Below the pieces are notes generated by a model. That model was not told where the DNA came from and searched no databases. It saw only the letters and a program-made list of their open reading frames with translations. Position numbers and translations under genes: made by a program. Positions 10,898 to 62,256 of a stretch of 64,000 nt of DNA are shown piece after piece (position 1 is the stretch's first letter; each line of letters begins with the position of its first letter). Location: positions 1 to 64,000 of the forward strand of contig NZ_JACXAE010000098.1 in NCBI RefSeq assembly GCF_014698965.1, read 5' to 3'. The stretch is from Iningainema tapete BLCC-T55. Lineage in GTDB: Bacteria > Cyanobacteriota > Cyanobacteriia > Cyanobacteriales > Nostocaceae.

Positions 10898-10925
10898 GTA
10901 GAGACGTTCCATGGAACGTCTCTAC
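10898..10925. repeat. Dispersed palindrome, perfect 28-bp copy
   Basis: This is a perfect palindrome with arms GTAGAGACGTTCCA and its complement, with no spacer. The same version occurs at 60506-60533. Confidence 0.9.
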
Positions 10926-51106: not shown

Positions 51107-52492
51107 TTATGGTTTGGTTGTGGGCAGCATTACAAAGTCGTAATCAAGATGATTAGACTGAATTTGAACGATGATTGGGGAAGAAGTGCGTTCGCCACTG
51201 GGGGCAAAACTAACGGCACTACTTGCTCCCCTAACGGTAAACCCTCGACTGTGCAAAGCTTGTTGTAAACCATCGCGACGCTGACTCTGCTGTAACCCTG
51301 CAATCATCGCCTGGGTGGCATCATAAGCGGTAGCTGTGCGCCAACTAACTTTGCCACGCCAGCGTTGACTCATCCTGTCGGCAAAAGCAGGGTTAACTTG
51401 AGGATGCCAAGGTGCGACGAGGACTAACCTCTTGACGGCTTGCTGTCCTGCTTGTAAAGTTTTGACGGTATACATTGTCGGATTGCTAAATAGTGCTAAT
51501 TTGCCTTGATTTGCTCTAGCGACATTAACCGCAGCTTCTAAGTGATCGACGTGGCTGGTAATAAACAACCCATCTGCACCACTACTAATAGCGCTACTTA
51601 CTACTGTATTTGGGTTAAAGTTAGGAGCTGATAAATCGCAAACAGTTGGAACTAATTGCCCTCCCTTGCTGACAAACGCCGCTAAAAATTCATCTTTGAA
51701 AGAGACATTATCAGGTGATTGGGAATCGTAACAAAAGGCAAGTTTTGTTTTGCGGGCAGTCTTTAACGTATAGTCGGCTAACGTCTGAGCCATGACTTTA
51801 GTTGTGGGAACCGTGCGAAAAATATAGCTACCAAATCCAGAAAGATTATTAGCAAATGAGGTTGGGGATATCATCACTAATCCTCCTTGCTGATAAATAG
51901 GTGCAGCTGCAAGGGAAACGTTGCTAGTATTATGTCCTATAACCCCAAGAATTTGGTTATCTTTAACTAACTCAGGCGCAACTTGGCGGGCAATATCTGG
52001 GTTATTTTCATCATTAACAATCTGGACTTGTAATTTTTTTCCGTTAATTCCGCCATTTTGATTAATTTCATCCTGGGCTGTTGCCACTCCCCGCAGGATT
52101 TCTTGAGCCACATTTAAGTTGCTACCAATTGGCACGCTTACCGCTATTTTCAGGGAATTGTTGATTGATTGAGCGTTATTTAGATAAATCAGTGTTTCCG
52201 GATCGTTCGGCTGTTGGAGGAGGGATTTTTTAAAGGATGCGTTCGCGAAGCGACTCCGAAGGAGTATCGCCTCTTGATAATCCCCCTTTGCAAAGGCGGC
52301 AATTCCCTTTTGTTTTTCTGGATTCAAATTATCTTTAATTAACAAAAGATTCCCAATACTCCCGATTTTTGACTCTGGTTTAAAAAAACTTTGAATCTGA
52401 GGAAATAATCCTACACATAACAATCCCAGAGCAATGTATAAAATGGGAGGTACTTTACGTTTTTTTGTTTTTACTTGTTCTGTTTTAGTCAT
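51107..52492 (-). CDS. Membrane-anchored TPR plus periplasmic amino-acid-binding-type protein
   Basis: This protein of ~461 residues has one N-terminal transmembrane helix (VPPILYIALGLLCVGLFPQI), a small TPR-like segment and a branched-chain amino-acid-binding (Peripla_BP_6) domain. Typical stretches are KIAVSVPIGSNLNVAQEIL, GVATAQDEINQNGGINGKKL, GVIGHNTSNVSLAAAPIY and the end VTYDATQAMI-like region. It has no transporter permease next to it and is a paralogue of the C-terminal half of the CHAT fusion at 53592-56098. An 8-residue insert (LLRSRFAN) in the TPR comes from a dispersed repeat. It is the last gene of the array and probably a ligand sensor. Confidence 0.85.
   Translation of the reverse strand: MTKTEQVKTKKRKVPPILYIALGLLCVGLFPQIQSFFKPESKIGSIGNLLLIKDNLNPEKQKGIAAFAKGDYQEAILLRSRFANASFKKSLLQQPNDPETLIYLNNAQSINNSLKIAVSVPIGSNLNVAQEILRGVATAQDEINQNGGINGKKLQVQIVNDENNPDIARQVAPELVKDNQILGVIGHNTSNVSLAAAPIYQQGGLVMISPTSFANNLSGFGSYIFRTVPTTKVMAQTLADYTLKTARKTKLAFCYDSQSPDNVSFKDEFLAAFVSKGGQLVPTVCDLSAPNFNPNTVVSSAISSGADGLFITSHVDHLEAAVNVARANQGKLALFSNPTMYTVKTLQAGQQAVKRLVLVAPWHPQVNPAFADRMSQRWRGKVSWRTATAYDATQAMIAGLQQSQRRDGLQQALHSRGFTVRGASSAVSFAPSGERTSSPIIVQIQSNHLDYDFVMLPTTKP
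52239..52270. repeat. HIP-type palindromic element inside a coding region
   Basis: The DNA GCGTTCGCGAAGCGACTCC, followed by GAAGGAGTATCGC, is a common cyanobacterial palindromic element. Here it lies within the TPR of a binding-protein gene and is translated as part of EAILLRSRFANAS. Confidence 0.75.
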
Positions 52493-52505
52493 AATAGTCT
52501 GCACC

Positions 52506-53591: not shown

Positions 53592-56098
53592 TTATTCAAT
53601 CTTGACAAATTTACCGTTTTGAATTTGGATTAAAGCGTCAGTACGTCCTTTCTGAAATAGAAATCTGCGTTCGCCTACGTTTTTGTCGAAGTTAAATTCT
53701 CCTGTGGCACCCTTAACCTTAAAGTTTGGATTTCTGAGGATATTGTCTAATTCCTTACGAGTTGCCTGTGGTTGTCTGAGTAGTTGTTCTAAACCCGTAG
53801 CGATCGCTTTTGTGGCATCCTTAGCCATAGGGCTTCGCCAACTTTTTAGCTCTGTGTGCCAAAGTTGCCGAAACGAATTTTTTTCTTTCTCATCGGGGTA
53901 GTAGGGAACTGATAATGTCAAACCTTCTACGGCTTTTCCTCCTAACTTAATGGTTTGTTCGGTATACAAAGTTGGACTACCAAACAGCTTAATTTGTAAC
54001 TGATTTTCTTGCAGTGCCTTGAAGATTTCTATCCCCTTTGGTAGGTTATTAACATAGGGTGCAATCAACAAACTGTTCACCTTATTTTTTCTAATCACTT
54101 CAACAACGGAAAGAGGATTAAAATTTGAGTCGGCAAGTTCACAGGGTATCTCGATATTTTGTCCTTTATAGGCTGAAACAACGTACTTAAATTGTGAGCG
54201 AAAATCTTGCTGATCCGGAGACACATTTGTATCTACACAAACGGCAACTTTGGGCTGAGGAATTGCTTTACCAAGACTTTTAGATAATTGTGCGGCGAAA
54301 AAGTAATTTGCGGAACCATGCGGAAAACATACGCAGGTTCTTGCAAGTTGTTAGCAAAGCTTGTTGCAGAAATCATAACTAATTTCCCTTCCTTATATAT
54401 GGGAGCCGCTGCAATAGAGGCATTACTCGAATTATGTCCGACAACTGCCATCACAGAGGTATCTTTGACAAACTTACGAGCAACTTCTTGAGCTGACTTT
54501 CTATCGTTATTATCCTTAGCGATTACCACCTGTAACAACTTGCCATTAATCCCATCGTCGCGATTAATTCCATCTTGAAATTCCGCGACACCCCGCAAAA
54601 TCTCTTCTGCTATGGTGGGATTTCCACCAAAGGGTACGCTTACAGCAATTTTAATTGTTTCTTTGCTATTAGCGGCTTTAGCATTATTTAAATAAATGCG
54701 TGCCTCTGGATCGTTAGGATTGTTTTGCAAAGATGCTTTAAAGTATGTAATGGCATCTGAGTACTTTTTCTCACTAAAAGCTTTTACACCTGCTTGTTTT
54801 TCAGGAGTGCTATTTTGGCTCAAAATTTCTTCCCCTAAGCTAATTCCTGGTGCTAAGGTAGAATCTTTATCCAAATCGGTAATTATTTTATAGATTACAG
54901 AAGCAAGAGTGATAAGTGCGATCGCACCTATACCCCACAGAGCAAGTTTCTTAATTTTCTGCCTCGTTGCCGAATTTTTCGATGATTCTACTAATTCTGG
55001 TAATGGCTCTCGCGGATATAATAGTGGTGGTTCTTCGGGATTTTGAAAAATCACGGGTAGCCAAGACGCATTAGGAGAGTCATTTTCTATTAACCTTAAG
55101 CGATCACGAGCTTCGCGCACAGCTTCATGTAAAGAAGCACCATTCGCAAAGCTCGTGAGAAAATCATCCAAGAATTTGTGTGCCACTATATCATGAACTG
55201 GCTCCCGCATGACAATGATATGAGGAATTTGCAAACTTTCTAATTGTCGTGCTAAACCTAATCCATCACAAGAGTTAAAAATCGCCAGTTTCAAACCATT
55301 TTTAACGGCTTTTTCCAGAGAACTCCTTAGCTGCTGCGGCGATAAAAATTCTTTGTCGTTCAACCAAATTCTACCATCATTTCCCTCTGGTTGAGTTGAA
55401 CTATGTCCAGCAAAGAAGATAATATCCCAAAGCTGACTTCTGAGGGTTTCTCTAAATTTATCTGCACTAGGTTTTTCCAGTAAAACTAATTCGGCATTTG
55501 GCAATTTTTCTTTAAGAATATTCCAGTCGTTTTGAATATCAATTTTTTCATCGTTCCCTAAAATCACGAGAATTTTAAGTGAACTTCTCAAAGCTCCTTT
55601 TTTAGGTGCTTTTCTGCTATTCAAAGCCACTTCAGCCTGTTGATAACGATTCTTAAGTAAACGCCATAACTCCCAAGGTATTTTCTGTAATTCTCTGTTA
55701 TCAGTTTGGATAATGAAGCTTACAGAATCATTTCTGTTAACTGTATGCAGCAGTTCATCTTTTAACTCACCTAAGTCAGAACTGTCTAGCCATTCATTTA
55801 AAGCATTTTCAAACAAGCAAGCAAATTTATGAGCATCATCCTTGCTGTTAACACTCGAACAGTTTGTATCTATTTGCTCTGGCACAATAATGTGCCGTCT
55901 CCACCAACGGTTGCTTTGCCCCCAAGAGTAGTAAGCTTGTTGCCAGTCATTATAACGGACGATAATTTCTGGTGCTGGTGCAAGTCTACCCCTAACTTCT
56001 GGAGCGCAAATCTCCCCATTTTCCCTAATCGTTAAGGTTATAGGAAAACCTTGCGTGAAATCACCTTGATCAATTCTGAAGATGACTTGCTTGCTCAT
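53592..56098 (-). pseudogene. CHAT protease - membrane helix - TPR - periplasmic binding protein fusion, split by a 1-nt frameshift
   Basis: The first frame (56098-54233) encodes 621 residues. It has an effector-associated N-terminus and CHAT (LQKIPWELWRLLKN, His232 in FFAGHSST, Cys277 in NSCDGLG). Then come a transmembrane helix (384-404), a TPR (about 432-472) and the first half of a Peripla_BP_6 domain (TIKIAVSVPFGGNPTIAEEI). It goes out of frame after YVFRMVPQITF. The other frame (53592-54300) carries the rest: AAQLSKSLGKAIPQPKVAVC, then SPDQQDFRSQFKYVV to the end. One T is missing in a T-run (54297-54301; five instead of six). With it restored the protein would have about 830 residues, with protease inside and ligand domain outside. 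Confidence 0.82.
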
Positions 56099-56374: not shown

Positions 56375-57730
56375 TTAAACTACGAATTGTTCAGTGATAC
56401 TGGTATTTTCTAAAGTTAGTCTAACATTGAAGCGATCGCCCACATCAGCACTAAAGTACAAAGAAATGTAATCATCTTGCCGTTCACTTCTGGATACAGC
56501 TTCCAAACCCAGAATAGGAGTGCCATTTTCATACAATACAGTCAATCGTAAACCAGGCGGTAATGTATAACTACTTATAGGATAAGCTCGCAGCAACACG
56601 GCAACTTTACCATCCAGTTTACGTAAAACTGCAACCATCAAAGCAATAGGATATCCCATCATTTGGACACCTAAATCCATCACATTTCTGATAGCGTTTC
56701 CTTGATAATTTGGTGCAATTGTCCATAAATATTCAGCCGCTTTCCATCGAATGGTTTCATCCGTCGTATTCTGCAACAGATGAACTAATGCATTTCGTTC
56801 TTCAATATTATCAGGGTAATTAACCTCACTTTGACTGTTGTACAATTGCCGCACTGCTCGTCTAACTTTTTCTGGTGTTTCTAGTTCAATTCCTCTCACT
56901 CTCCCTCGAAACGCTAGTGCTATCTTAGAATTAAATAACTCTTCAAATGTTTGCCAACCTGATAAAGCAACACCATCCAACCACCGACTCAAATTCCATA
57001 TTGTCGGTGAACCTGGCTGCACCCGTAATTCATATAATCTCTGTAACCAAGCACTTTTATTTAATAATGCGCCCCACTTTTCAAAGTTGGCTTTCAGGCG
57101 GGGAGAATAAAGCTTATCTTGGCTCAATTCCTCTATTAATTTTTCTACTTCAGTCTGTGATAGTTTTGGTAAAGCTGTTACTTCGCCTTTTTCATCCTGC
57201 AAAATATTCGCCGCAATTACCAAGCTTTCTAAGTTAGGAATCACCCAATCTCGCTCAACATAATAGAGACGATAAATCGGATCGTAATCTGCTTTAGCTT
57301 TCAAACTGCGCCGGGAAATAAAACCCCAAAAATGAAGATACTGCTTTTGTAAATCTACCCTTATAGGTAAATAATAATCTGCTGCCCAATCGGGAATATC
57401 AACCCATTCTTGAGGAACAGCAAAGTCTGCAATATCGATGGCATCACTAGGAATCAGTACCAGCTTTTTACTACCGACATTAATCGCACATCCATTGACG
57501 AATTCCCAAGTAAGGGGCAATTTTTCATTGGGTATACTTACAGATAACCCTATCTCCTGCATCCACTTCAAAAAGGCATTCAGACACAGGCGATTTAGAT
57601 AAGCAAAATTGCGTCCTGTTTCATTAGAGTAATCTTGAGATGGTTGAGCTTGTTTCAAATCACTGTCTGTCAATTCTAACCAAGTATGCTCGGAATAAAT
57701 CTGGCTTAATGTTTGGATATTTAACTTCAT
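56375..57730 (-). CDS. DUF1822 family protein
   Basis: This 451-residue protein matches the cyanobacterial DUF1822 family. It begins QTLSQIYSEHTWLELTDSDL and has FAVPQEWVDIPDWAADYYLP, then FWGFISRRSLKAKADYDPIY, RLYYVERDWVIPNLESLVIA, and a C-terminal beta-rich part (RAYPISSYTLPPGLRLTVLY, ENGTPILGLEA). The frame is intact. It has no signal peptide. In cyanobacteria DUF1822 genes often sit beside sigma-70-like genes and CHAT genes, as here. The molecular function is unknown. Confidence 0.87.
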   Translation of the reverse strand: MKLNIQTLSQIYSEHTWLELTDSDLKQAQPSQDYSNETGRNFAYLNRLCLNAFLKWMQEIGLSVSIPNEKLPLTWEFVNGCAINVGSKKLVLIPSDAIDIADFAVPQEWVDIPDWAADYYLPIRVDLQKQYLHFWGFISRRSLKAKADYDPIYRLYYVERDWVIPNLESLVIAANILQDEKGEVTALPKLSQTEVEKLIEELSQDKLYSPRLKANFEKWGALLNKSAWLQRLYELRVQPGSPTIWNLSRWLDGVALSGWQTFEELFNSKIALAFRGRVRGIELETPEKVRRAVRQLYNSQSEVNYPDNIEERNALVHLLQNTTDETIRWKAAEYLWTIAPNYQGNAIRNVMDLGVQMMGYPIALMVAVLRKLDGKVAVLLRAYPISSYTLPPGLRLTVLYENGTPILGLEAVSRSERQDDYISLYFSADVGDRFNVRLTLENTSITEQFVV

Positions 57731-57745: not shown

Positions 57746-59022
57746 TTACTGTAGATAAAGTTGCAGAATGGTTTCTAATCTGTTTTCTGTGAGGAGATGA
57801 ATTTTATGCTCTGCCACACCTTGAGGTTGAAACTGAATTTGAATTTCCACCTGAATTTGCTCAGTTATACTGCTGTATAACCATTGCCGAATCGCCTGTA
57901 GCAAATCCTTTACTTCCTGCTCGGATGCGTGAATTTTATCGCCAATTTCTGAAGGTTTCAATTTCACAATGTAAAATAATTTTAATACCTCCCGGCTTTG
58001 CCTTCCTAAAAACTGAATTGTTCTGGCAAAAAAACCATCAATTTTTTCAGAATAGTATTGGCATAACACAGCTTCAATCTCATTCAATCCTTCGGAACTT
58101 GGTTCAAGGTTTGCCCAAGTGAAAATCTCTGTCAAGATGTAATTATTTAATTGCTGAAGACGGCGACAGATTTGGTATTGCTCTTGATTTCTCAATTCTT
58201 TACCAACTTGAGCTTGTTTCAGTTCTAAACCATACCTAAGAAAAAGCATTTGCTTTTCTTGAGTTTCTTTCAATTCCTCTAGTAGATGAGAGAGAAAATT
58301 CCTTAATTCATCTACTATTTGATTCATTTCCTCATCTACTTTTATTTGAGCGGGGATGTTGTCTATTAGAGAGACATCTCCATTTAATTGTGCATAGTAC
58401 GTATCGAGAGAATCAAGAGGTGGGTTTAATAATTGTCGAATCGCTTTGCCAATATTTTCTAACCATATTTTACTCTCGTCTGCACTAAGTTTTGGCTTTT
58501 GTTCAAGTGACAGTATTTGCAGGCTATAAAGTTTGGCAATTTCCTGAAAATGTTCTGGTTTAAGTTTATCTACTCCCAACTTAATTGAATTTCTGACTTC
58601 TTGAAAACACTGCCAAATCAGCAGATATTGCGTCAATTCTGCTAAACTGTAACCTGAGTGTTGCAATGCTTCTTTCACTCGTTTTCGGCTAGAGCGTGCA
58701 GCTAAACCCAAGTTGGTTTGACCAAGTGTTTCTAATCCTGTCTCGTCTTGTAATTTGTTAATTAAAATATACTTGAATTTAGTATCAGAGTACCTCTTTA
58801 AGGTAGGATACCAATATTCAATTCGAGAACGCTGACTGTCAAACTTTTTAAAAAAATTTACCGGATGAATCGCTACCTCGGCTCCCATTTGGACTAAATC
58901 TCGAAAACTACCAGGGCTGAAATGAGCCAGCTGTAAAGCTACTTTTTCACAACGTCTTGCTAAAAAAGCAATCCAATGGTAAAGGAGTAGTTTATGTGGA
59001 TGCTGCTGTAACTCGTCAAATA
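57746..59022 (-). pseudogene. Sigma-70-like factor, C-terminal part cut off by an IS element
   Basis: The frame runs in from the IS end (59022) as FDELQQHPHKLLLYHWIAFL, ARRCEKVALQLAHFSPGSF and LVQMGAEVAIHP, and ends at 57746. The middle is helical; the C-terminus resembles sigma region 4 (LGRQSREVLKLFYIVKLKPS, EIGDKIHASEQEVKDLL). A later ATG at 58888 could start a 380-residue product. The N-terminal piece lies beyond the IS at 60159-60353. Without the IS and one TA, the two parts read in one frame (TAT TTA TTT GAC) to give about 480-489 residues. The protein probably controlled the DUF1822-CHAT array. Confidence 0.78.
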
Positions 59023-60158
59023 TACTTTAGACGGTCATAATCTGAGCTTTGTTAAAAGTTTGGAATCGTAGAGTGAGCAAGGAGTCGAGTTCCTGATTAT
59101 GCTTGAGATGAGCTTCGTTCAAGCAATCAGATATCGCCGTGGAAAATTGAGAAAAGTCTTGATAATATTTGGCATACAAACACTTCTTTCTGACAAACTT
59201 CCACAGCCTCTCAATCAAATTCAAATTAGGAGAATAAGGGGGTAAATAAAGTAACTCTATCTTTAATGAATCAGCTAAATTCTGTACCACTTTACATTTT
59301 TGGTAACGAGCATTATCTAAGACTAAAGTAATGGGAATAGTCAATCCTAAATCTGCCAATTTATGTAACAGTTCACAAATCTGTGTGGCAGTAATATAGG
59401 TGTCGTTAGTCACCGTAATAACTTCATGGGTGATAGCGTTTAAAGCTGCTAAAACATTGAAGCGTTTTCTTCCAGAAGGAGATTTAATCAAGATTCTTTC
59501 AAAGCACCAAATTAAACTGAGAAAAGCTCCCATTACAAAGTGGGCGGCATCCACAAAGAAAACGGCTCTTTCCCCTGCTTTTGCCTCTGTCAGTCTCGGT
59601 TCTAGCTTTTGGAGCTTATATTCTTGTTGCTCATCAGGGTCAGCTTTTGAGGGAATAAAACCCACTTTTAAACAACGCATTCCCATTGACTTTAAAAACT
59701 TCCTGACTTGGGTTGGACTGCGTTTAATTCCTGTTAATGATTCAATTTTTGAAATAGCTTCATTAATGCTAGCTGGCGGATTTTGTTGAAAATAAGCTTT
59801 GAGGGTTTGTCTATGAGATTCCATCTCACTTTTAGGTTGATAGAAATTAATTTCCTTTAACTTTTCTATCCCTCCTTCTTGATAATCTCTCAAATAACTG
59901 CGCAAAGTATTAGGAGAGATTCCTGTTAATTTACAGATTGAGGAGTGAGGCAATTTTTGGCTTTTAAGCCAAATAGCTTCCATTTTCAACTGAACTCGTG
60001 GATGAGGATGATGAAAGCGCTCATAGTGTAAAGCTTGTTTTTCCTCTTCAGTAAATTCAATGTGTATCATGTCTCACCCAAAGCTTTTCTTTTCTGTGCT
60101 ACTCCTTTCTAGAGTATTGCTTCTGCCTCAAAAACGCAAGTTATAACCGCGCAAAGTA
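59023..60158 (-). mobile_element. IS630-type insertion sequence, 1136 bp
   Basis: The element carries one transposase gene and has imperfect terminal inverted repeats: TACTTTAGACGGTCATAA at 59023-59040 and the complement of TACTTTGCGCGGTTATAA at 60141-60158 (14 of 18 match). A TA target duplication lies on both sides (59021-59022 and 60159-60160), as is usual for IS630/Tc1 elements. It is inserted in a sigma-70-like gene. Confidence 0.9.
59027..60070 (-). CDS. IS630-family transposase
   Basis: This 347-residue transposase has an N-terminal HTH pair (LPHSSICKLTGISPNTLRSY, then SLTGIKRSPTQVRKFLKSMG). The C-terminal DDE domain has the first Asp in AVFFVDAAHFVMG, the second in TLVLDNARYQKCK and the Glu in NLNLIERLWKFVRKKC. 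All three catalytic residues are present and the frame is whole, so the element may still move. The stop codon lies within the left terminal repeat. Confidence 0.95.
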   Translation of the reverse strand: MIHIEFTEEEKQALHYERFHHPHPRVQLKMEAIWLKSQKLPHSSICKLTGISPNTLRSYLRDYQEGGIEKLKEINFYQPKSEMESHRQTLKAYFQQNPPASINEAISKIESLTGIKRSPTQVRKFLKSMGMRCLKVGFIPSKADPDEQQEYKLQKLEPRLTEAKAGERAVFFVDAAHFVMGAFLSLIWCFERILIKSPSGRKRFNVLAALNAITHEVITVTNDTYITATQICELLHKLADLGLTIPITLVLDNARYQKCKVVQNLADSLKIELLYLPPYSPNLNLIERLWKFVRKKCLYAKYYQDFSQFSTAISDCLNEAHLKHNQELDSLLTLRFQTFNKAQIMTV

Positions 60159-60353
60159 TAAATAGCGAGCTATTCTGGCTTCCAGTATTTCTTCATGACA
60201 TTCTCCAACATCTTCAATGTTTTGACGTAACTTGTTGACGCGATCGCGTAAGCGTGGTTCAATTCGCCAAATAATGCGATGTTCTTCTATGCTGTCGGGT
60301 AATGTATAAAAGCATTCCAATGGCATGACTGTACGGAATACAAGATTGAACAC
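60159..60353 (-). pseudogene. Sigma-70-like factor, N-terminal part upstream of the IS element
   Basis: The frame from an ATG at 60353 (or 60326, giving MPLECFYTLPDSIEEHRIIW) encodes RIEPRLRDRVNKLRQNIEDV and EARIARYL, then enters the IS and stops at 60141. EARIARYL joins to FDELQQHP at 59020 when the IS is removed. This is the missing start of the sigma-like gene at 57746-59022. Confidence 0.78.
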
Positions 60354-60505: not shown

Positions 60506-60533
60506 GTAGAGACGTTCCATGGAACGTCTCTAC
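60506..60533. repeat. Dispersed palindrome, perfect 28-bp copy
   Basis: Identical to the copy at 10898-10925. It lies between the sigma-like gene start and the HTH-NB-ARC gene, with a G-run repeat just after. Confidence 0.9.
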
Positions 60534-60600: not shown

Positions 60601-62256
60601 TTATATATCATTTTTTTTCAATTCTTCTAGCAGATTGTACAAATTTTCCACAGCATATCCAACTTCTAACTTTGATTTACTTTCCAGGTAGGATTTTATT
60701 TGGTTTAGGCTATCGATCATAGTGTTTTGATTTCTCAAAGCTTCATAGGTATATAATCTAGCTTTAATCAAAGAGATAATAGAAGTTAGTTTACCTTCAC
60801 TAATATCTGACTGAGATTCTTTCAGTGCATGGTTTCTGAGCAAATTTAATTTATTTAAAATCTTTTCTGGTTCGCTTGCTTGAAGACTTGCTTCATAAAT
60901 TTCTTGGGAAACTTGCTTGACAATTTCATCCCTAATATATTCCATAACCACTGGCTGTAAAGTGAAAAGTGATGTGGAATTCTCTTTATGTGTCTCAATT
61001 AGCGATCGCTCTTTCAAAGATTCCAGAGCTACTATTAAGTCAGATGGTAATACAGACTTGGATGCGCAAAGACTTTCTTGCAGTTGTTCCAGCGTTGCTG
61101 GTTTTTGCTGAATAGCTAACCAGTACAAAATTTTCTTTCCCAGCTCTGATAACCGATTGACTTGATCTTCTATTAAAATACGGATATCCCTAAGCACGTA
61201 GGTTAGGCTCTGAGCTAAAAATTTAGCAACATCGTTATCAAATAACTCTTGAATTGTCTTAGAAACAATCTTTAAAGCTAATGGATTGCATCGATAGACA
61301 TTAATGAGCGTTCCCCATTGAGCCTCTCCAGATAATTTTTTATCTTTCAATATTTGCCGTGCTACTTTCTGGGAGCCTTGCATTTCTAAAGTGCGAACAA
61401 CTACTGTTTCTGCTTGCAGCACAGGAATTTCTCTTGGCGTCTCACGACTGGTTAGGAGCAAGCAGCTTTGATGGGATTGTTTGCCCAATCTGTTCAAAAG
61501 TTGTCCGTAATCTTTGTAGTCTTTTTTATAATGCCCAGCAAAATCACCAGGACTGAGAATTGTATGCCAATTATCTAATATCACCAGACATCGTGATTTT
61601 TGTAAATACTCAATCAAAATAGAAATTTTATCAGTAATATTAACATCTTGTGATAAAATGTTCTGACCGCGAGACAGGAAGTTAATCAATTCCGTCAACA
61701 GCTTTGTCAAAGGTGGAGCATTGCGTAGACTTCGCCAGATGATAAATTCAAATTCATTCTCAATCTGTTGAGCTAACTTCACTGAGAGCGAGGTTTTCCC
61801 GATTCCTCCCATGCCCAGCAGTGCTACAATCCGGCAGTGGTCTTGCAAAATCCATTCCTTGAGAGTATTGTGATCCTCAAGTGTCTCAAATAGAACAGAA
61901 GGATCTGGAGCATCTCCCCAATCTTGGTGGGGCTGGTTGGGAGTGTCGTCAACAGTTGTAGTTGTTGCCAATACAGGTGCGATAATTGCTCGAAAGCGAT
62001 CGCTCACTAATTCCGGTTTGTACTTACCTACTAATACAATTAGCTCCTCTCGCCTATTCAATTTTAGTCCGGCGATTTCGCTCCTAATCCCAAAGCGATC
62101 GCAAAGATTTTGCACATGCTTGCGCACTGTGGCTGGTGTGGCGGAAATTGCCTGTGCTATTTCATCATCTGTGTTTCCCTCTAATAAGAGCTTGAGTACT
62201 TTTCTTGGTTTGGGACTAAGTTCTTGAAACCTTAACGTGAATTCATCTTTATCCAT
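60601..62256 (-). CDS. HTH (LuxR-like) - NB-ARC STAND ATPase
   Basis: This 551-residue protein has an N-terminal LuxR/GerE-type helix-turn-helix (about residues 13-68; LSPKPRKVLKLLLEGNTDDE, ISATPATVRKHVQNLCDRFG), then an NB-ARC ATPase. The ATPase has Walker A GMGGIGKTS at 148-156, Walker B CLVILDNWH, the RNBS-like LLLTSRETPREI and the GLPL-like CNPLALKIV. A winged-helix and a short helical tail follow, without WD40 or TPR repeats. It is probably a signal-gated transcription regulator or conflict protein. It lies upstream of the sigma-DUF1822-CHAT genes on the same strand. Confidence 0.87.
   Translation of the reverse strand: MDKDEFTLRFQELSPKPRKVLKLLLEGNTDDEIAQAISATPATVRKHVQNLCDRFGIRSEIAGLKLNRREELIVLVGKYKPELVSDRFRAIIAPVLATTTTVDDTPNQPHQDWGDAPDPSVLFETLEDHNTLKEWILQDHCRIVALLGMGGIGKTSLSVKLAQQIENEFEFIIWRSLRNAPPLTKLLTELINFLSRGQNILSQDVNITDKISILIEYLQKSRCLVILDNWHTILSPGDFAGHYKKDYKDYGQLLNRLGKQSHQSCLLLTSRETPREIPVLQAETVVVRTLEMQGSQKVARQILKDKKLSGEAQWGTLINVYRCNPLALKIVSKTIQELFDNDVAKFLAQSLTYVLRDIRILIEDQVNRLSELGKKILYWLAIQQKPATLEQLQESLCASKSVLPSDLIVALESLKERSLIETHKENSTSLFTLQPVVMEYIRDEIVKQVSQEIYEASLQASEPEKILNKLNLLRNHALKESQSDISEGKLTSIISLIKARLYTYEALRNQNTMIDSLNQIKSYLESKSKLEVGYAVENLYNLLEELKKNDI

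Follow-up and report, generated by a model that had tools for sequence, protein, structure and literature searches.

An IS630-family insertion in the sigma-like gene of a sigma-DUF1822-CHAT operon of Iningainema tapete BLCC-T55, and the question of its reversibility

When an insertion sequence divides a gene so neatly that the two halves can be rejoined on paper into one continuous reading frame, one may ask whether the gene has been lost or is only switched off. This question is raised by a locus of the cyanobacterium Iningainema tapete BLCC-T55, found in the 64,000-nucleotide stretch analyzed here (positions 1 to 64,000 of contig NZ_JACXAE010000098.1, forward strand; hereafter the window), which sits in a 353-kb contig (C98) of a draft genome of 9.5 Mb and 134 contigs. 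There, an IS630-family element is inserted in a sigma-like gene belonging to an operon of an already known kind. It is highly likely that the locus records an ordinary and recent cut-and-paste IS630 insertion which damaged the sigma gene, with no evolved switch behind it. The element would have entered at a TA in codon 56 and thereby split the first gene of the sigma-DUF1822-CHAT operon, and the full-length sigma-like protein has very probably been abolished. As found, the significance of the locus is modest, namely another insertion that would disable a regulatory cassette with several similar counterparts. It also carries a caution, that a clean empty site obtained in silico is no proof that an IS630 element can return the gene.

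The element proper is an insertion sequence of 1136 bp at 59023-60158 (minus strand), identified through its ends, its target duplication, homologous copies elsewhere and a match to the IS630 model. It is flanked by two copies of the duplicated TA target, one on the transposase 3' side (59021-59022) and one on the transposase 5' side (60159-60160), the latter supplying the final two bases of codon 56 (TTA) of the interrupted gene. The terminal inverted repeats lie at 59023-59046 (plus strand, transposase 3' side) and 60135-60158 (minus strand, transposase 5' side), and were delimited by comparing both ends with each other and with homologous elements, which share this type of end. They are identical at 17 of 24 positions without the TA and at 14 of 18 when the TA is counted, and random 18-mer pairs taken from the region reached at least 14 matches once in 20000 trials (a single-pair rate, uncorrected for the choice of positions). 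The initial annotation had set the borders by the TA duplication and the 14/18 ends, and both the sequence and the homologous elements bear these borders out to the base; its interval of 59021-60160 simply spans both TA copies. Where the ends of 13 homologous loci, including a second copy in the same genome, could be recovered, a TATACTT start was observed in 7 of 8 cases at the 5' end and in 11 of 12 at the 3' end, the exception at both ends being a decayed copy (L038), and the flanks of these elements differ by eye beside the TATACTT ends. A reading of the element as dead, judged from its end mismatches, was considered and rejected; three of the four mismatches within the terminal 18 nt also occur in homologous copies, so that for the most part they characterize the family and do not signal decay. 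The fourth, a G at position 11 of the 5' end, is confined to the window copy, none of the 8 other recovered 5' ends having it.

The transposase gene within the element (59027-60070, minus strand) is intact and encodes 347 aa. Its product matches the IS630 model NF033545 (2.1e-56; 191.6 bits, cut-off 100) as well as the DDE_3 and HTH models of Pfam. The residues D174, D252 and E287 are all present, as the initial annotation had said of the DDE residues, and we take them, spacing included, to be the catalytic triad of an IS630-family transposase. To judge from these features the element appears structurally intact and could still move.

The same genome possesses a second full copy with an intact transposase (C65:11960-13099), which is 80% identical at the DNA level, and at such a distance neither of the two is a recent duplicate of the other. 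A search of the genome with the IS630 model gave 19 matches, of which 6 exceed the cut-off, and among these genome matches nearly the whole model is found in one unbroken frame only in the window copy and the C65 copy. In the order as a whole, 53 of 291 genomes (this one counted) contain DNA matches to the element at E<=0.001, many of them short. The homologous elements C65, L030-L033, L035 and L036 are 72-80% identical in nucleotide sequence and have ends of like kind, C65 and L030-L033 being alignable over all 1140 bases. The homologous elements of the order differ from the window copy in occupying other insertion sites, and their transposase frame is broken in L030, L031, L032 and L035 and intact in C65, L033 and L036. 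Among the 13 loci from other genomes (L030-L042), a full-length unbroken transposase was seen only in L033 and L036, some of the remaining loci ending at contig borders; both full copies in the present genome are intact.

These observations also bear on the most trivial account of the locus, in which assembly has joined the element to a gene that is not truly interrupted. A draft genome of 134 contigs leaves room for such an error, but a single contig of 353 kb contains the duplicated TA together with the two ends and the two gene halves, and with the other copy no more than 80% identical a chimeric join is unlikely; an artefact of this kind is exceedingly improbable.

The interrupted gene consists of a 5' fragment with codons 1-56 (60159-60326, minus strand; MPLECFYTLP...EARIARYL) and a 3' fragment with codons 57-480 and the stop (57746-59020, minus strand), both defined from the joined frame and its alignment. 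When the flanks are joined with one TA, the frame extends over 505 codons from stop to stop and encodes 480 aa from the ATG at 60326; the initial annotation had predicted a continuous frame of about 480-489 residues, and the frame is indeed open across the junction. With a cut-off of 1e-60, the sigma-like protein occurs in 7 of the 291 genomes of the order, this genome counted, and a scan of named genomes located it at two loci, both cyanobacterial (Phormidium sp. LEGE 05292 and Cyanobacteria bacterium UBA11371). All six relatives are uninterrupted, with 484-493 residues and an MPLE or MPIE start, and the joined protein is 43-66% identical to them over its whole length. Aligned to these full-length proteins, it has no residue missing or extra at the junction in any of the six comparisons (ARYL-FDEL against ARYL-FETL and so on). 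The closest downstream gap, a single residue shared with the relative G147, lies 8 residues beyond the junction, and other small gaps are placed elsewhere. Since the junction aligns without a gap to all six relatives, the empty-site frame is real, and the alignment check suggested in the initial annotation comes out in favor of the joined frame.

The name sigma-like is fair, since the joined protein passes the sigma70-ECF superfamily model TIGR02937 (49.2 bits, cut-off 42.9), which it matches at residues 78-347, and since Sigma70_r4 of Pfam is found in all seven members at E<=1 (best 9e-10), the window protein itself scoring 17.1 bits, below the cut-off of 24.1. No Pfam model of sigma region 2 was among the 25 of 33 families listed. 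A search of solved structures with the seven-row sigma profile returned no significant match (best E 0.092 for a TetR protein; 0.39 for FliA), and a structure prediction of the sigma protein of one relative, made from a three-row alignment, gave a mean pLDDT of 45.2 and a pTM of 0.25.

What the two pieces may still produce is the next question. The 5' piece is extended beyond the junction by 5 codons of element sequence before reaching a stop, giving 70 aa when counted from the GTG at 60353. Behind the element, the first in-frame ATG, GTG or TTG is the ATG at 58888, which opens a frame of 380 aa. The transposase gene and the sigma fragment share a strand, and the TAA of the former (59029-59027) is in frame with the latter. 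It is therefore conceivable that a shortened protein of 380 aa is produced, possibly by way of transcription from the transposase gene, or that readthrough of the stop yields a transposase-sigma fusion. The open frame and the common strand would permit this; however, a shared frame is expected by chance in one case out of three, promoter-like sites are no more frequent in the region than chance predicts (4 versus 4.4 expected), and roughly 100 residues would be missing from the N terminus of the protein, among them the conserved MPLECFYTLP start and a portion of the 78-347 sigma match. A shortened product of this sort is unlikely, and damage to the sigma gene is the reading that we retain. A terminator scan of the region was likewise at chance level.

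The second gene of the operon is a DUF1822 gene (56375-57730, minus strand; 451 aa; PF08852 1.9e-77), which is intact and adjacent in all six relatives. It is followed by a gene encoding a CHAT (caspase-like) and periplasmic-binding-domain protein, the 5' part of which (54233-56098, minus strand; 621 aa; PF12770 7.9e-15, PF13458 9.9e-12) ends early at a frameshift. The continuation in another frame (53592-54302, minus strand) corresponds to residues 602-836 of G147, to which it is 73% identical. The gene order sigma-DUF1822-CHAT is observed in the window and in all six relatives. Neighborhoods in which an ECF sigma factor occurs together with DUF1822 and a caspase protein of variable C-terminus are described in the portion of Kaur et al. 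(2021; PMC8195603) available to us, and the same portion proposes, as a prediction, that stimuli activate the caspase and, via the sigma factor, transcription. Judged on its sigma, DUF1822 and CHAT genes, the present operon resembles this ECF sigma/DUF1822/EACC2-caspase neighborhood; the Pfam matches obtained for the window proteins include no EACC2 model. In the window, too, a sigma-like gene, DUF1822 and a CHAT gene with an extra C-terminal domain adjoin one another, whereas, unlike the neighborhoods in that portion of the paper, the sigma gene is split by the element and there is a frameshift in the CHAT gene. PADLOC, applied to the sigma 3' fragment, DUF1822 and the 5' part of CHAT, gave no match.

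The genome harbors seven further sigma-like genes (E<=0.001), eight in all, of which the one in the window is disrupted. A DUF1822 match was found near all seven others, and a CHAT match near five of the seven within the flanking stretch examined. As assembled, the frameshift of the CHAT gene falls within 54240-54310 and comes from the loss of 1 nt in a T run near 54300, where the window has five T followed by C and both G147 and another relative, G065, have seven T. This may be a real lesion or a homopolymer sequencing error; if it is real, excision of the element alone would not restore the operon. It is tempting to see the insertion and the frameshift as two steps in the decay of the whole operon, by which one of eight cassettes is being lost, and such decay would be compatible with an ordinary insertion. 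Two lesions within one operon, the seven other sigma-like genes with their DUF1822 (7/7) and CHAT (5/7) matches, and the enrichment of pseudogenes near IS elements that is reported for cyanobacterial genomes (PMC4369082, in the part consulted) would all fit this picture, but DUF1822 is intact and shows no clear acceleration, the change in CHAT concerns a single nucleotide in a T run of a draft assembly and is possibly an error, and the remainder of the CHAT frame is still 73% identical to G147. We therefore treat decay of the operon as a tentative possibility, and the ordinary insertion remains the preferred account of the interrupted sigma gene.

The age of the insertion can be approached from the state of the sigma gene. 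The joined frame has no stop in 480 codons, where 273 of 4320 one-step changes would create one, and about 47 neutral substitutions (0.033 per site, with indels left aside) would be expected to produce three. Branch lengths were estimated with iqtree from seven sequences on a fixed topology, from which the free DUF1822 tree differed; the CHAT tree used no more than residues 1-600 of the window protein and, for the relatives with two CHAT genes in tandem (G139, G091, G178 and G165), the one of greater similarity. The window branch is 0.306 in sigma (sister path 0.228 for G147 and 0.236 for G065), 0.213 in DUF1822 (0.171 and 0.205) and 0.152 in CHAT (0.179 and 0.164), which suggests that the rate excess of sigma over DUF1822 is at most mild. 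At columns invariant in the other six sequences, the window protein has changed at 15/124 in sigma, 18/223 in DUF1822 and 9/249 in CHAT; since the share is highest in sigma, some relaxation of this gene since the insertion may have occurred. Private changes in other rows reach 32/141 in sigma (G139) and 30/270 in CHAT (G178). Because the frame is free of stops and the sigma excess at most mild, the insertion is probably recent relative to the splits between the compared genomes.

Whether the gene could come back is best considered with ISY100 (ISTcSa), a Tc1/mariner/IS630 element of Synechocystis sp. PCC 6803. According to the sections of PMC2170065 at our disposal, ISY100 shares with the window element a TA duplication, imperfect inverted ends and, compared by architecture, a single transposase gene with an N-terminal HTH and a C-terminal DDE domain, and it differs in size (947 bp and 282 aa, against 1136 bp and 347 aa in the window). 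The same sections report that ISY100 was cut two nucleotides inside its 5' ends in 13 of 16 junctions, that cleavage occurred at other positions in 3 of 16 vector junctions and was less precise on short linear substrates, and that ligation of the purified donor backbone in vitro resulted in TATATA. As the window element likewise has TA termini beside its TA duplication, the same reaction would leave TATATA here, a scar that we infer from a relative of different length. Among simulated scars, a single TA gives the open full frame, retention of both TA copies (TATA) gives a shifted frame, and TATATA gives a stop. ISY100-like self-excision would thus replace TA with TATATA, a shift of +4 nt, and translation would end after two more codons (...EARIARYLYI-stop). 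The empty site constructed in silico may mislead in this respect, since the cutting chemistry mapped for the IS630 family leaves extra bases.

The initial annotation had gone further and suggested that excision could switch the sigma-like gene on again. The arithmetic of this suggestion stands, in that removing the element together with one TA restores a full-length frame without a gap against the relatives; the notion of a ready switch is not supported, because a TATATA scar of the ISY100 type gives a stop and the CHAT gene is separately frameshifted. A reversible switch would require the element to leave precisely, so that the sigma gene is mended and a fraction of the population regains an active operon. 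An intact transposase, intact ends and the gapless single-TA junction agree with such a scheme, and a precedent exists in ISAba13, for which scarless excision restoring the gene itrA at low frequency is described in the part of PMC9038732 consulted. ISAba13 in itrA likewise is an IS within a coding sequence flanked by short direct repeats, but there, as the same part relates, revertants were isolated and sequenced, whereas in the window the occupied site alone is seen and the family mechanism, as known from ISY100 (PMC2170065, in the sections cited), predicts a scar that is here a stop. The occupied state comes from a single assembly, and in collections with one genome per species and only this genome for the genus neither an empty site nor a second state, nor any regulation, was seen. 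The insertion is missing from the six relatives, so that nothing points to its upkeep by selection, and the downstream CHAT gene is also frameshifted. A switch is thus possible in principle, without positive evidence and with the cutting chemistry of the family speaking against it, and we consider it very unlikely.

Exact restoration would need either copying from an uninterrupted chromosome or a rare host-mediated precise deletion. A search for a Ku gene found no match in this genome, the same search being positive for Bacillus subtilis alone among 14 control genomes, and bacterial end joining is therefore not an obvious route. Copying from an uninterrupted sister chromosome is possible only while empty copies remain. 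One can imagine on this basis an accidental switch driven by ploidy, in which occupied and empty chromosomes coexist and Ku-less repair of IS630 breaks from empty copies restores the caspase-linked sigma gene exactly in part of the population; this we regard as highly improbable. In the limited portion of the literature on IS630 and precise excision that was covered, no precise excision of an IS630 element is reported. If exact restoration did prove true in culture, the repair-dependent reversibility of transposon insertions would become testable in bacteria that lack Ku and carry multiple chromosome copies.

Several minor features surround the operon. Upstream of the interrupted gene, 60601-62256 encodes a protein with a LuxR-type HTH and an NB-ARC/NACHT domain, in which PADLOC reported two weak CARF-type matches; near the gene in the six relatives, some of which have little upstream DNA, no match to this protein was found. 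Between the sigma and NB-ARC genes lies a perfect 28-nt palindrome, GTAGAGACGTTCCATGGAACGTCTCTAC (60506-60533), which scored as terminator-like and occurs at 21 places in the genome, two of them in the window (the second at 10898-10925). On the other side of the operon, 51107-52504 encodes a second protein akin to the C-terminal half of CHAT, 41% identical to residues 380-812 of G147, and the N-terminal CHAT part was not matched there. In four of the six relatives a tandem pair of long CHAT genes takes the place of this arrangement.
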